A stretch of 64,000 nucleotides of DNA from Chroococcidiopsis sp. TS-821. Its GTDB lineage: Bacteria; Cyanobacteriota; Cyanobacteriia; Cyanobacteriales; Chroococcidiopsidaceae. A program made the translations under genes and the position numbers. Where the stretch lies: the NCBI RefSeq assembly GCF_002939305.1, contig NZ_MVDI01000002.1, forward strand, positions 1 through 64,000. Direction: 5' to 3'. This document shows, one piece after another, positions 57,584 through 64,000 of this stretch (positions are counted from its first letter, which is position 1; every line of letters starts with the position of its first letter). The notes under the pieces were generated by a model. The model did not search any database. It had not been told where the DNA came from and worked only from the letters and a program-made list of their open reading frames with translations.

Positions 57584-60500
57584 TTAGAGTTGAATGTTAC
57601 CATTTCTCACTTGCTCAGCCAAAGCGCGAGGAAACGAGTTTTGTACATTCGGGTTAAAAATTCTTGCAAGGCTAGTAGCAAGTCTTCCATAGCTGAATAC
57701 ATTTGCAATCGGAATTCCCTCAGTAGTTTGGATAACAAAGTCACCCGCGGGTAATCGCTCAGCTGTCACCAATTCACTACTAATATCACGTACAGGGGGA
57801 GCCTGCTGAGCAACACTATTAAATTGGAGACCCGGTCTACCACCCATAAACCGAAGTAGTCGTCCCGTGTTTTTGTCTAACTGCGTTAGCCAAGCATCGA
57901 CAGCAGAAGTCGTCGCTCCATTGAGGTTTCCGAGTAAACCATCTGTAAATCCCGTGACATACAACATATTGTTGTTACCAACTGCTACTCCAGCTGGGTA
58001 GTCAATATTATTATCGCTACCAAACTGTCGGAACCACCCAATGTTACCATTGGTATCAAAACGTGCTACCCAGGTGTTGAAAGAATAATTTGCCGCTTGT
58101 CGTCTGAGCGCTCTAATATCTGTATGCCCGATGAGAAAGATATTATCCTGAGCATCAATTTCCATGTCAGATAAGATCATGCCATCATCACCTGGACCGC
58201 CGAATTGCTTAGCCCATACTTGACTTCCGTCAGTTGGGTTTAACTTGAATAGCCAGATATCGCGGGCTCCTCCTCCTAATCGTCTCCTGCGTTGGTTAAG
58301 TCTTGGACCAATGTCACCTGTTGTCCATCCTGTGAGGTACACAAAGCCTTGACTGTCAGTATCAATTGCCCAAGCAAACTCTAGTCCAAAGTCTGTGCTA
58401 CCTATTTGTTGCAGCCACTGCACTTGACCAGCTGAATTGACCTTCACAACCCAAACATCGTATTTTGGCAGAGGTCGGATTGGATCTGATTCTCTGACTA
58501 AACCTTGCGTCCATCCTGTAATGTAAGCATTGCCTTGTTGATCGACGGTGACGTCATAGCATTCGTGGAAAAAGGGAGTATTAATCTCAGTAGACCAGAG
58601 TTGATTGCCATTGCTATCAAACTTTCTTATCCAGGAATCGTCTTCAACGCTGAAATCGAAGATTTCTCGATTTGGGTTATCCTTAACTGCTAGTCCTGAG
58701 ACATAAACATTACCTGCTGGATCGACATCGACACCCCAAGCAGTACTGACAAAACCACCAGCATTAAATTGCCTACCCCACAAGCGATTGCCATTGGTAT
58801 CGTATTTAGCTACCCACGCATCTAACTGTTGTGATTGTTTGGGTGAAAATAAGCTGCCACCTGTTTCTCCGACTACGTAGATATTACCTTGACTATCTGT
58901 GGCAATCGCATGGGCACTGTCACCGCTAGAACCACCAAATTGCCTAGCCCATACTTGAGTTCCACTGCTGTTATATTTCGCTAGCCATGCATCAATAGAA
59001 CCTTGATTTGTGCCAAATAGCGGTCCTGTTGTCGTTCCGGTTATGTAAACATTTCCAGCAGAATCGGTTGCAGCATCAAGACTTAAATCTCTACCTGTTG
59101 TTCCTAGTTGGCTAATCTTTCTCCGACGCCCTGGTCTTCCTTGGGGTCTAGTTCCTACGTACTTAAAGTAACTCGCGTTTAAATCTAAAGTGACTTCTGG
59201 TCTTGCAATGATGTAACCGAGTACGTCGGGTGCGCCTTGTTGAAGTGAGATAATGGCTTTACCAAAGAAAGGTTGTTGAATTCCTTCAACTCTCAAGTTG
59301 TTAACATCGATCAAGCGATAGTCTTGGGGACGACCGTTGAGTTGGATGGAATCTTGAGCAGGATCGAAGTCATAGATAATTGCGTACTCGTTTAAACCTA
59401 GGAAATTAGTTGTCAGTAGAGTGGCTGGGTCAGCACTAGCATAATATGGTCGATCGGAATCTCCTAAAACGAACCGATCTTTCCCGACTGAGGGAATATT
59501 TCTTTCTAGAATTAGTAACGGATTACCTCCTTGCTGATTATTCTGAATGTTCAGAATAATTTCGTACTCTTGCGGGGTGTTATCGAAGATGTCACCGAAC
59601 AGAAAATCAACATCTACGTTTTGTCGGCGGGTGACCGGAGGATCGTCGCTGTAAATCGTATCACTTCCAGCACGCCCAAACACGAGTTCAAAATTAGAAT
59701 AGCCTGCTTGAACTAAATCGCTTGCTGGTGTAAATAGGTAAACAGGAAACGATTCAGCATCGCTTTGAGTTTGTGCTTGTACCTGTGGTAACCAGACATT
59801 AAGAACGATCAGTAAACTAAATACAGTACAAGCAGACAAAGCTGAGACAAAATTAACGGTTGCAAGCACCTTTGTTCGCACAAAGCGCAGTTGCCGCATC
59901 ACATAATTGTTACGGTACTCAACTGCCAAAAATGCTATGAAGCTAAGTCCGTTGACACTCAGTAGCCAAAGCCTAAAAGGCGATCGCCAGACACCATCGA
60001 TTCCGTGACTTAGTGCATAAGCAAGCGTACCTAAAACAATAATACTAAGAACAATACCTGCCCAATTGCGTTTTTGTCGCCGCTGAGGGATATCTGGCGA
60101 TACTGTCTTGGCAATTACCCAAAATGCGATCGCCCCGATCGCGACATTGAGTAAAAATAAACTCCGCCATCCCAAAATACTGGCGATGTTTCCACTCCAG
60201 TTATAACCAGCCCATAACCCAAAGACTGAGACTCCTAGCCAAAGTGCGAGGAAAAGAACTTTTTGACGCCCTCTAGCACAATGATTAACGATAAAAATTG
60301 ACGTTGGGATAAAGCCAGCAGCGCCAATTCCTTGTAATATTCGTCCAGCGAGCAAAATTTCCCAGTTTGGTGCGAATCCACATATTAAGGACGCGATCGC
60401 AAACAGGAATAGCCCTGTTAGCAATACTCGCTTGCGTCCATACAAATTTGCGATCGTCCCGCCTGTTAATACCAAACTGGCGGCAGTCAAAGTATACGCA

Positions 60501-60649
60501 TTGAGTACCCACTGCGATCGCAATACATTCCAACCTAAACTCGCTTGAACTTTAGGAAGTGCCATCATGACTGTATTGTCAAAATTAGTCATGAATAAAG
60601 CACACGCTATAGCAGCCAGTGCCATAACTCGAACACGACCTCGATTCAT
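57584..60649 (-). CDS. Chimera: truncated DHA2-type MFS transporter fused to seven-repeat beta-propeller protein
   Basis: A 1021-residue protein with two unrelated halves in one frame. Residues 1-~285 are the N-terminal two thirds of a DHA2/EmrB-type MFS exporter, nine predicted membrane segments (MALAAIACALFMTNFDNTVM; GRKRVLLTGLF; LAGRILQGIGAAGFIP). The frame then leaves the transporter within TM9 (VLNVWLPQVQAQTQ; nucleotides near 59770). The rest is a soluble protein: an RTX-associated linker (RFVLGDSDRPYYA, AIIYDFDPAQDSIQL) like that of the protein at 44743, then seven SBBP-type repeats (AATDSAGNVYITGTTTG, IATDSQGNIYVVGETGG and on). An odd number of helices would place the propeller outside. 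The ATG at 60649 is preferred to a TTG at 60673. Real fusion or assembly artefact is open. Confidence 0.85.
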   Translation of the reverse strand: MNRGRVRVMALAAIACALFMTNFDNTVMMALPKVQASLGWNVLRSQWVLNAYTLTAASLVLTGGTIANLYGRKRVLLTGLFLFAIASLICGFAPNWEILLAGRILQGIGAAGFIPTSIFIVNHCARGRQKVLFLALWLGVSVFGLWAGYNWSGNIASILGWRSLFLLNVAIGAIAFWVIAKTVSPDIPQRRQKRNWAGIVLSIIVLGTLAYALSHGIDGVWRSPFRLWLLSVNGLSFIAFLAVEYRNNYVMRQLRFVRTKVLATVNFVSALSACTVFSLLIVLNVWLPQVQAQTQSDAESFPVYLFTPASDLVQAGYSNFELVFGRAGSDTIYSDDPPVTRRQNVDVDFLFGDIFDNTPQEYEIILNIQNNQQGGNPLLILERNIPSVGKDRFVLGDSDRPYYASADPATLLTTNFLGLNEYAIIYDFDPAQDSIQLNGRPQDYRLIDVNNLRVEGIQQPFFGKAIISLQQGAPDVLGYIIARPEVTLDLNASYFKYVGTRPQGRPGRRRKISQLGTTGRDLSLDAATDSAGNVYITGTTTGPLFGTNQGSIDAWLAKYNSSGTQVWARQFGGSSGDSAHAIATDSQGNIYVVGETGGSLFSPKQSQQLDAWVAKYDTNGNRLWGRQFNAGGFVSTAWGVDVDPAGNVYVSGLAVKDNPNREIFDFSVEDDSWIRKFDSNGNQLWSTEINTPFFHECYDVTVDQQGNAYITGWTQGLVRESDPIRPLPKYDVWVVKVNSAGQVQWLQQIGSTDFGLEFAWAIDTDSQGFVYLTGWTTGDIGPRLNQRRRRLGGGARDIWLFKLNPTDGSQVWAKQFGGPGDDGMILSDMEIDAQDNIFLIGHTDIRALRRQAANYSFNTWVARFDTNGNIGWFRQFGSDNNIDYPAGVAVGNNNMLYVTGFTDGLLGNLNGATTSAVDAWLTQLDKNTGRLLRFMGGRPGLQFNSVAQQAPPVRDISSELVTAERLPAGDFVIQTTEGIPIANVFSYGRLATSLARIFNPNVQNSFPRALAEQVRNGNIQL

Positions 60650-62308
60650 TACTCTTATTGCCCCTAATGTCAAATTTTTCTAGATGTTGTAGAAGGTGAC
60701 GCTGCTATGCTTCTACTCATCTCAATAGGTTTAGTGCGAGAAAACAAAAACAATAGCTTAACCAGATGTTTGGTCGTTACAATCCAACATGATATTATTC
60801 CCTAACTTGTATAGCAATATACCTTGATGTGATAGGTATAAGGGCGAGCTTTAGCTAGTAAGAATAACAGCCAATAGCAATCGTACAGTATTGATTTTTT
60901 TGAAAAATCTCCCTTTGTGTCTTTAAGATTGAGCAATCTTTTGCGGTGTAAAGATAGATTCGAAAACATTTTGCATCCAACAAGAAATACTCATTTATAA
61001 GGCAATCTTGCTGGTAGACACTTAAGATTTTTGACAGGCAGCCTACGACTGCTAACTCATACACTGTTCGTTTTTAAGTTACGCAGCCTCTGTTGCTAAC
61101 CAGCAGTATATTCTCACACTTTGAATTGGAAGTAAATACTTTATTGGCAGGCTGCTCTTTTCAATTAACCTTCAACTTCAATTACCACTAAATCGTCTCT
61201 GGGACTACGCTGCAATCAATATCGAGCTTGATATTTCAATAAAAATTGCTCTAGAAATATATTATACATTTATTATACTTATAACTTATTCTAGCTAGAA
61301 ATTTAAAGACCTAAGTTAGGCTAAAAGCCCATAAAATCATACCTTTATCGCTAAATCAGCTTCAAACTTGATGAAAAAACACAATTTTGTAGTTTTAGCT
61401 ACATTAGAAATAATTATTGTTTTTGGAGGTTAAATCTTTAACTTACCGTAGTTGTGAAAAATGCTTTTGTCCTGTTTGCTAGTTGGCAGTTTTGTAAGAT
61501 GCGTTACAGTCATACTAAGCTAGATCTATTAGAAACCTAGCAATTTTCCCCTAATAATTGGTGACAGACTACATCTTGAAATTGCCTACAATATTAGTTT
61601 AGTCTGCAATAGAACTTTGATACATTAGGGGTTTGCGCTCGCAAGATTTTTTTATTTTTACCAAAATTTTATGCATTTATGATATATGCTTTTGCCAAAT
61701 CAACAAAAGTAGTACTATTTAGATCAATTACCTTATTGGAAATATCAAATAAGTTTTTTTTATCAAAATAGAGTGATTAAATGAAGAAAAGTGTAGTATC
61801 ATCTGTATCGAAGTTGCTGTTCTAAGCAGCTCGCAAATTAAAACCTCTAGTAGGTTGCAAGAAAATTTGCAATTAGGTCGCGACAAAGGGCAATTGGGCA
61901 AATATTAGCTGCTGTTTAAAATAATTGTTAGTGTTAAGTATTAAAGAATTGAATAGAAGATACGTCGTACAAAGTTCTAGAAGTGCAAACACGCTGTACC
62001 TAATAATCCTTTTATAGTTTTAGTAATAGTCAAAAACGTATAATTACTTTTACTAGAAATGTAAAATAAGGCACAGCTAAAACTGCAGGTGTCTATAAGA
62101 TGAGAGCAAATTAATTTTAAGAAATTTTGAACAGGGAGAAATAGAAATAGCTTAGAGAATTATCCGTTCTAGGCAAGCAGACAAAGCAGATTGAGATATT
62201 TTAGCTAGTAAATAATTGTCTCAACTTAACTCAGGCTAACAGAGTGAAACTGAAGGATTTCAAGTTGGTATAGAACATCAAATCACAATAGTAACAGGGT
62301 TGCATGTC
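60650..62308. other. Long gene-free leader before the FAAL gene
   Basis: About 1.65 kb between divergent genes, A+T-rich, with frequent stops in all frames. Only a 69-codon minus-strand frame at 60855-61064 is open, with no features. It must contain promoters for both neighbours; no clear repeat, tRNA or hairpin terminator was found. Confidence 0.6.
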
Positions 62309-64000
62309 ATGAATTGTCAAAATCAGGAGATGCCAGCTAGCGATTATTGTTTCTCAACGTTTGTTGAGTTACTTAATTACAGGGCAGAAAGTCAGGCGGA
62401 GCAACAATTATACACGTTTTTGAAAAGTGGCGAGACAGAGACTGAAAAACTAACTTACAAAGAGCTACAGATGCAAGCACAAACAATTGCAGCAGCACTG
62501 CAAGCTCTAGATATGTTCGGCGAGCGAGCCTTGCTACTTTATCAGCCAGGTTTAGATTTCGTTGCGGCTTTCTTTGGGTGTTTATATGCTGGAGTTGTGG
62601 CAGTTCCAGCGTATCCACCTAGAAAAAATCAAAACCTATCGCGATTGCAGGCGATCGCCCAAGATGCTCAAGCTAAAGCTATTCTTACTTCTACATCACT
62701 GATAGAGAGTCTGCAAGCTAGCTCAACACAGGAAGGGTTAGGTATATCTGGATTGCATTGGTTAGCGACTGATAGCTTGAGTACAGATTTGGCGCTGACA
62801 TGGCAACCTCCACAAATTAGCGATCGCACTTTAGCTTTTTTGCAATATACTTCCGGCTCGACAGGCAATCCCAAAGGAGTGATGGTGAGTCATGGCAATC
62901 TGCTGGCTAACTCAAGCACAATTTATCAGATGTTTGGGCATTCACCACAAAGTCAAGGCATGATTTGGCTACCACCCTATCACGATATGGGACTCATTGG
63001 TGGCATCTTGCAACCACTGTACGGCGGCTTTCCTGTTGTCTTGATGGCTTCTGTAGACTTTCTCCAAAAACCGATGCGTTGGTTGCAGGCGATTTCTCGT
63101 TATAAGGCAACAACAAGCGGCGGACCTAATTTCGCTTATGATTTGTGTTTGCGTAAAGTGACACCAGAACACTTAGCCACTCTCGATCTCAGTAGTTGGG
63201 AAGTTGCCTTTACTGGGGCTGAACCTGTAAGAGCGGAAACCATCGACAAATTTGCTGCTACTTTTGCTGAGTGTGGATTTCGTAAGGAAGCTTTCTACCC
63301 CTGCTATGGAATGGCAGAAACAACACTCATCGTATCTGGGGGTGAGAAAACAGCTTTGCCAGTAACTTATGATGTAGACAAAGTGGCACTAGAGCAGAAT
63401 CGCGTTAGCAAAGGCGATCGCGGAAGTAGTCAGACTATTGTAGGTTGCGGTCGCAGCCCAAGTTCGCAAACAGTGGCGATCGTTAATCCTGACACGCTAA
63501 TTCCTTGCACTTCAGAAGAAGTCGGTGAGATCTGGGTATCAGGACCGAGTGTTGCTCAAGGTTACTGGAATCAACCCGAAGAGACGGAGAAAAATTTTCG
63601 CGCCAAACTAGCAAATATTCATGAAGGTACATTCCTTCGCACAGGCGACTTGGGCTTTTTGCAAGATGGAGAGCTATTTATTACAGGGCGCATTAAAGAT
63701 GTCATTATCATTCGCGGGCAAAATCACTACCCGCAAGACATCGAACTAACGGTAGAAAACAGTCACCCAGCGCTGAGAATTGGTTGTGGGGCGGCGTTCG
63801 CGATAGACTTTAAAGGTTCTGAACGGCTAGTCATTGTCCATGAAGTAGAACGCAGTTATTTACGGAAGCTCAATGTAGCCGAAGTTGTCGGGAGTATTAG
63901 ACAAGCTGTCGCAGCACAACACGGGTTAGACGTTTTTGCAACAGCCCTTGTTAAAACTGGTAGCATTCCCAAAACTTCTAGTGGTAAGATTCGCCGCCGC
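62309..64000 (+). CDS. Fatty acyl-AMP ligase (FAAL), partial at window end
   Basis: Open from ATG 62309 to the window edge, 564 codons without stop. YTSGSTGNPKGVMVSH (about 180) is the adenylation motif, GGPNFAYDLC (about 271) and CYGMAETT are FAAL-typical, GDLGFLQDGELFITGR and IKDVIIIRGQNHYPQDIE follow, and TGSIPKTSSGKIRRR near the edge carries the conserved Lys. FAALs activate a fatty acid as acyl-AMP and load it on an acyl carrier protein to start lipopeptides, polyketides or, in cyanobacteria, terminal olefins. The remaining domains lie beyond the window. Confidence 0.93.
   Translation, partial: MNCQNQEMPASDYCFSTFVELLNYRAESQAEQQLYTFLKSGETETEKLTYKELQMQAQTIAAALQALDMFGERALLLYQPGLDFVAAFFGCLYAGVVAVPAYPPRKNQNLSRLQAIAQDAQAKAILTSTSLIESLQASSTQEGLGISGLHWLATDSLSTDLALTWQPPQISDRTLAFLQYTSGSTGNPKGVMVSHGNLLANSSTIYQMFGHSPQSQGMIWLPPYHDMGLIGGILQPLYGGFPVVLMASVDFLQKPMRWLQAISRYKATTSGGPNFAYDLCLRKVTPEHLATLDLSSWEVAFTGAEPVRAETIDKFAATFAECGFRKEAFYPCYGMAETTLIVSGGEKTALPVTYDVDKVALEQNRVSKGDRGSSQTIVGCGRSPSSQTVAIVNPDTLIPCTSEEVGEIWVSGPSVAQGYWNQPEETEKNFRAKLANIHEGTFLRTGDLGFLQDGELFITGRIKDVIIIRGQNHYPQDIELTVENSHPALRIGCGAAFAIDFKGSERLVIVHEVERSYLRKLNVAEVVGSIRQAVAAQHGLDVFATALVKTGSIPKTSSGKIRRR

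Follow-up and report, generated by a model that had tools for sequence, protein, structure and literature searches.

An open frame on the + strand (62300-64000) ran off the edge of the window, i.e., the whole 64,000-nucleotide stretch of Chroococcidiopsis sp. TS-821 DNA analyzed, which corresponds to bases 1-64000 of parent contig C2 (606,965 bases; genome of 5.23 Mb). A further 56 kb beyond the edge was read, and coordinates above 64000 are those of C2, continuing the window numbering. The likely start was the ATG at 62309; the stop lay 144 bases beyond the edge, at 64144, so that the full-length product comprises about 611-614 amino acids. Matches to the AMP-binding family (E-value of 4e-70), a DIP2-like AMP domain, and NCBIfam fatty-acyl-AMP-ligase models confirmed the identification, made in an earlier note, of a fatty acyl-AMP ligase (FAAL) gene cut by the edge; FAALs were also among the best solved-structure relatives of the protein. 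The prediction in this note that FAAL opens an unseen lipid pathway was borne out: the frame stopped shortly after the edge, yet ACP and PKS genes followed. On the other hand, FAAL was not the outermost gene: a CylK homologue was already located in the window (57584-60673). The whole cluster extended over about 33 kb (C2:57.6-90.3 kb) and contained the following features.

57584-59776, - strand: part homologous to CylK (about residues 300-1029) in a chimeric protein; phmmer to CylK structures
59777-60673, - strand: truncated MFS transporter (EmrB/DHA2 type) of the same ORF; Pfam MFS_1, TIGR00711
62309-64144 (in the window to 64000), + strand: FAAL; AMP-binding, DIP2-like, and NCBIfam matches
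C2:65036-65929, + strand: desaturase; FA_desaturase family membership
C2:66041-66334, + strand: lone free ACP
C2:66357-67775, + strand: predicted CylC-type dimetal halogenase, 472 amino acids; weak AurF match
C2:67923-72704, + strand: PKS1, KS-AT-KR-ACP, complete module with intact motifs
C2:72707-75637, + strand: PKS2, KS*-AT*-ACP, degenerate module
C2:75676-77553, + strand: TUB, TubC_N docking domain and about 560 amino acids
C2:77583-78431, + strand: SDR
C2:78434-79675, + strand: MGDG/diglucosyl-diacylglycerol-synthase-like glycosyltransferase
C2:79685-80866, + strand: UDP-galactopyranose mutase (UGM); TIGR00031, 449.6 bits (cut-off, 303.75)
C2:80896-81819, + strand: methyltransferase
C2:81838-82884, + strand: GT2 glycosyltransferase
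C2:82897-84147, + strand: GT4 glycosyltransferase
C2:84144-85640, + strand: flippase
C2:85660-86592, + strand: second GT2 glycosyltransferase
C2:86690-87901, + strand: second MGDG-like glycosyltransferase
C2:87898-88746, + strand: fatty acid hydroxylase
C2:88811-90340, + strand: MFS efflux pump

The gaps between genes from ACP to the MFS pump were -4 to 147 bases, suggesting that they are arranged as in one operon. Upstream of this tightly spaced part, a gap of 891 bases without a sizeable ORF was found between FAAL and desaturase (C2:64145-65035), and may represent a second promoter or a lost gene. Promoter-like sites upstream of FAAL were no more frequent than expected by chance, no Rfam match was obtained in the first 20 kb around the edge, and no second FAAL was detected in the genome at an E-value of 1e-60 or better. 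Directly after the cluster (C2:91908-99647; 27.9 kb past the edge), a DpdE/DrmD-like helicase (PADLOC DpdE, E-value of 9e-208) was found together with a DrmMI/type IIG-like methyltransferase, the coding sequence of which was divided between two frames. They may represent a frameshifted defence locus resembling DISARM or Dpd.

Predicted halogenase and CylK homologue

The halogenase contained QESYH and HLLDEAFH, corresponding to the QExxH and HxxDExxH signatures of CylC-type diiron halogenases, for which nine conserved active-site residues are described (PMC12101540). All nine were present (E103, Q136, E137, H140, E284, H311, D314, E315, and H318), E103 and E284 being assigned by position and spacing rather than by aligning the protein directly with CylC, and were invariant across ten aligned relatives. 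Sequence identities of 67-80% were found with 21 proteins from Nostoc, Komarekiella, Aliterella, Hydrococcus, Desmonostoc, and others. A profile search of the PDB gave nothing meaningful, and the AlphaFold model (pLDDT of 39.3) was too poor to use. The conserved residues suggested that the 472-amino acid protein chlorinates the acyl chain. If it were instead a diiron oxygenase, the product would be a hydroxylated, non-chlorinated glycolipid; in Pfam, the protein indeed resembled only AurF N-oxygenases, and weakly. However, this function appears improbable, since Gln occupies the position of the AurF Asp, both motifs are the published halogenase signature, and a CylK partner with the Arg and Tyr for an alkyl halide is encoded alongside.

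Halogenases of the same family were also found with other PKSs. Nostoc indistinguendum CM1-VF10 possessed two different clusters (L036 and L040), of which the PKS line-ups differed. Related halogenases (67-71%) at L041, L042, and L043 preceded very large PKS proteins (about 3100-3285 amino acids, the frames of L041 and L042 being still open at the end of the stretch examined); these formed a different branch of the family, and TUB was not seen within the stretches examined.

The - strand ORF upstream of FAAL was an MFS/CylK chimera. Its CylK part consisted of a Ca-binding N-terminal domain and an SBBP beta-propeller, and matched, over the last 700 residues of the ORF, the CylK structures 7fh8 and 7ron with an E-value of about 1e-88 in phmmer. 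Equivalents of Arg105 and Tyr473, which engage the alkyl halide in CylK (PMC8916777), were kept, and Asp440 was replaced by Glu, as in NglO (PMC10849952). This Arg/Tyr/Glu set was found in all 31 aligned homologue rows (some are duplicates of one gene), and the CylK part is predicted to be an alkyl-chloride-using enzyme. A CylK homologue was present in 19 of the 20 genomes checked.

The MFS half corresponded to the first about 300 of about 535 residues and was joined in frame to CylK, whereas CylK was a separate gene, adjoined by a complete MFS gene (about 520-535 amino acids), in several of the other genomes. An identical arrangement was found in Nostoc sp. FACHB-152, and the CylK tree paired the two fusions with a support of 99/97. 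The dN/dS values were roughly 0.3 (MFS half) and 0.14 (CylK), with dS near saturation. These values, well below 1 albeit with the near-saturated dS, and the twin in another genus, 58% identical throughout, argue against a decaying gene; the simplest reading is one old fusion, retained under selection. The joining of the two parts raises the possibility that chloride displacement is linked to export.

PKS line and relatives

The FAAL-ACP-CylC-PKS-TUB-SDR core recurred in about 20 cyanobacteria, in which several PKS line-ups were distinguished. Type A (e.g., L025) possessed a single KS together with a dead AT, ACP being separate; this KS kept the Cys and both His residues, with AVGT instead of GTGT. 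Type B (this cluster, G167, G101, and others) had a complete KR module followed by KS*-AT*-ACP. Another relative, G278, showed KS-AT-KR-ACP, KS-AT-DH-ER-KR-ACP, and then KS*-ACP without AT, in agreement with the domain list published for the ngl cluster. The His of HGTGT was replaced by Gln in the KS* of PKS2, as in all two-PKS relatives with TUB, and in the last KS of type B and G278, and GHSxG was missing from the last AT of types A and B. Type A, type B, and G278 all continued with ACP-TUB-SDR.

The Nostoc sp. FACHB-152 cluster (NZ_JACJRV010000021.1; L025) shared the MFS-CylK fusion upstream, FAAL (76%), desaturase (72%), halogenase (80%), hydroxylase (72%), and UGM (88%) with that of TS-821, but differed in its PKS (the single KS with a dead AT and separate ACP) and in the lack of the GT2-GT4-flippase-GT2 insert and of the methyltransferase. 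In phylogenetic trees, FAAL (99/96) and halogenase (89/91) grouped this cluster with type A L025, while TUB grouped with type B (100/100), and SDR (98/97) and GTa (100/100) paired with type B L046. The cluster looks as if a front of type A had been joined to a back of type B, with the junction near the boundary between halogenase and PKS.

Relationship to known pathways

In Nostoc punctiforme, the ngl cluster spans 36 kb and encodes FAAL, a glycosyltransferase, an epimerase, homologues of both CylC and CylK, and a PKS with domains including KS, AT, KR, DH, ER, ACP, and KS*; its products, nostochlorosides, are gulose glycolipids that carry chlorine and have a C21 tail derived from palmitate. 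NglO joins these products by ether bonds, and deletion of ngl abolishes the chlorinated glycolipids (PMC10849952). Judged by described gene content, not by alignment, our cluster shared with nostochloroside ngl/pks3 of strain ATCC 29133 FAAL, ACP, a CylC-type halogenase, a type I PKS with KS*, a glycosyltransferase, and a CylK homologue with Arg/Tyr/Glu. Glycosyltransferase and methyltransferase genes, as expected for an ngl-type cluster, were both present. On the other hand, there was only one elongating module, with KR alone, whereas the ngl domain list also contains DH and ER; UGM, several extra glycosyltransferases, and a flippase were found, with no recognized gulose-type epimerase (no epimerase family, as expected for an NglK-like protein, was the best match of any gene product); and desaturase and hydroxylase genes and the fusion of CylK to half an MFS pump were additional differences. 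The published nglO primer matched none of 53 genomes of the likely N. punctiforme genus.

The cylindrocyclophane (cyl) pathway shares the FAAL-ACP-CylC start and the CylK finish, but no gene for the type III PKS (resorcinol-forming CylI) was found here, with glycosyl tailoring instead. Similarly, the CylC clusters with type I PKS for chlorosphaerolactylate, columbamide, microginin, and puwainaphycin (PMC8406957) have FAAL and ACP upstream, and type I PKS downstream, of CylC; our cluster differs in lacking NRPS parts and in possessing CylK and glycosyl genes. We consider it highly probable that the cluster is a variant of the ngl-type chlorinated-glycolipid pathway, of which FAAL is a member. 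Among the options listed in the earlier note, a glycolipid-like system was nearest, while the CylC/CylK halogenation class with a probable glycolipid product had not been listed. The gene cut off by the window edge is now placed in a broadly distributed cyanobacterial halogenation-pathway family with one characterized product group, reported in 2024.

From the gene order, domains, active-site residues, and conservation seen in the sequence, we infer the following chemistry, step order, and product. FAAL would adenylate a free fatty acid and load it on the lone ACP, after which the CylC-type halogenase would chlorinate the chain at an unactivated carbon, and desaturase may introduce unsaturation. 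PKS1 would add one malonyl unit, leaving a beta-hydroxyl group, and the non-elongating PKS2 (KS*-AT*-ACP) would then take over the chain for release by docked TUB and SDR, which would probably generate a 1,2-diol-type end. Sugar(s) would be attached by glycosyltransferases and UGM, the methyltransferase would cap a hydroxyl group, and the MFS pump and flippase would be responsible for export. Like NglO, the CylK homologue may then displace chloride and thereby link the products into oligomers by ether bonds.

FAAL, desaturase, and ACP are also the three functions of the jamaicamide starter (review, PMC11837247), and a JamABC-like system would make a terminal alkene/alkyne acyl starter, the CylC-like protein being incidental. 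In one cluster type, desaturase is indeed located between the other two genes, which fits this; however, desaturase was absent from the other cluster type, while halogenase was always present, and the CylC and CylK residues were fully conserved, making such a function unlikely. Although FAAL and KS-AT-KR-ACP also belong to olefin synthase (FAAL-ACP-KS-AT-KR-ACP-ST-TE) and TubC_N typically serves NRPSs as a docking domain, the other options of the earlier note can practically be dismissed for the 57.6-90.3 kb cluster: olefin synthase by the absence of sulfotransferase (ST) and thioesterase (TE) domains and by separate proteins in place of one fused megasynthase, a lipopeptide PKS/NRPS by the absence of C and A domains, TubC_N standing alone, and the hgl-island version of the glycolipid option by the absence of an HglE/PUFA-type synthase and a PfaD-like subunit.

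TUB protein and a possible mode of chain termination

A profile search of the PDB and Pfam with TUB found the docking domain alone, and the AlphaFold model (pLDDT of 42.6) was too low in confidence to use. Among 36 TUB homologues, 137 residues were invariant, including H523, H525, C549, and E553. We tentatively propose that KS*-AT*-ACP, TUB, and SDR might constitute a new type of PKS chain termination, a possible rather than a likely mechanism, in which docked TUB would add one carbon to the acyl-ACP and SDR would help to leave a 1,2-diol for glycosylation. Such a step would explain the odd-numbered tail of nostochloroside: C16, two modules (four carbons), and one carbon would give C21. In ngl, the 6-hydroxyl group would then be due to the KR-only module, plain C4 to the DH-ER-KR module, and the diol at C1-C2 to TUB/SDR. 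By this rule, the tail of the TS-821 product would consist of the starter and three carbons and carry hydroxyl groups at C2 and C4. The cleavage of a larger PKS product was proposed instead by Glasser et al. (PMC10849952). Since variants with zero, one, or two apparently working modules all have a constant end (ACP-TUB-SDR after the degenerate KS/AT), the question of the odd-numbered tail is directly testable.

TUB homologues with identities of 53-60% also occurred in PUFA-synthase/hgl-like clusters of Nostocaceae-type genomes (L049-L065), close to a lone ACP, so that the one-carbon step, if true, would be widespread. These clusters also carried PfaD-like, ferredoxin, PapA-like, and ACP-thioester-reductase-like genes, and at L061 an ABC transporter and a sulfotransferase were located just after TUB.
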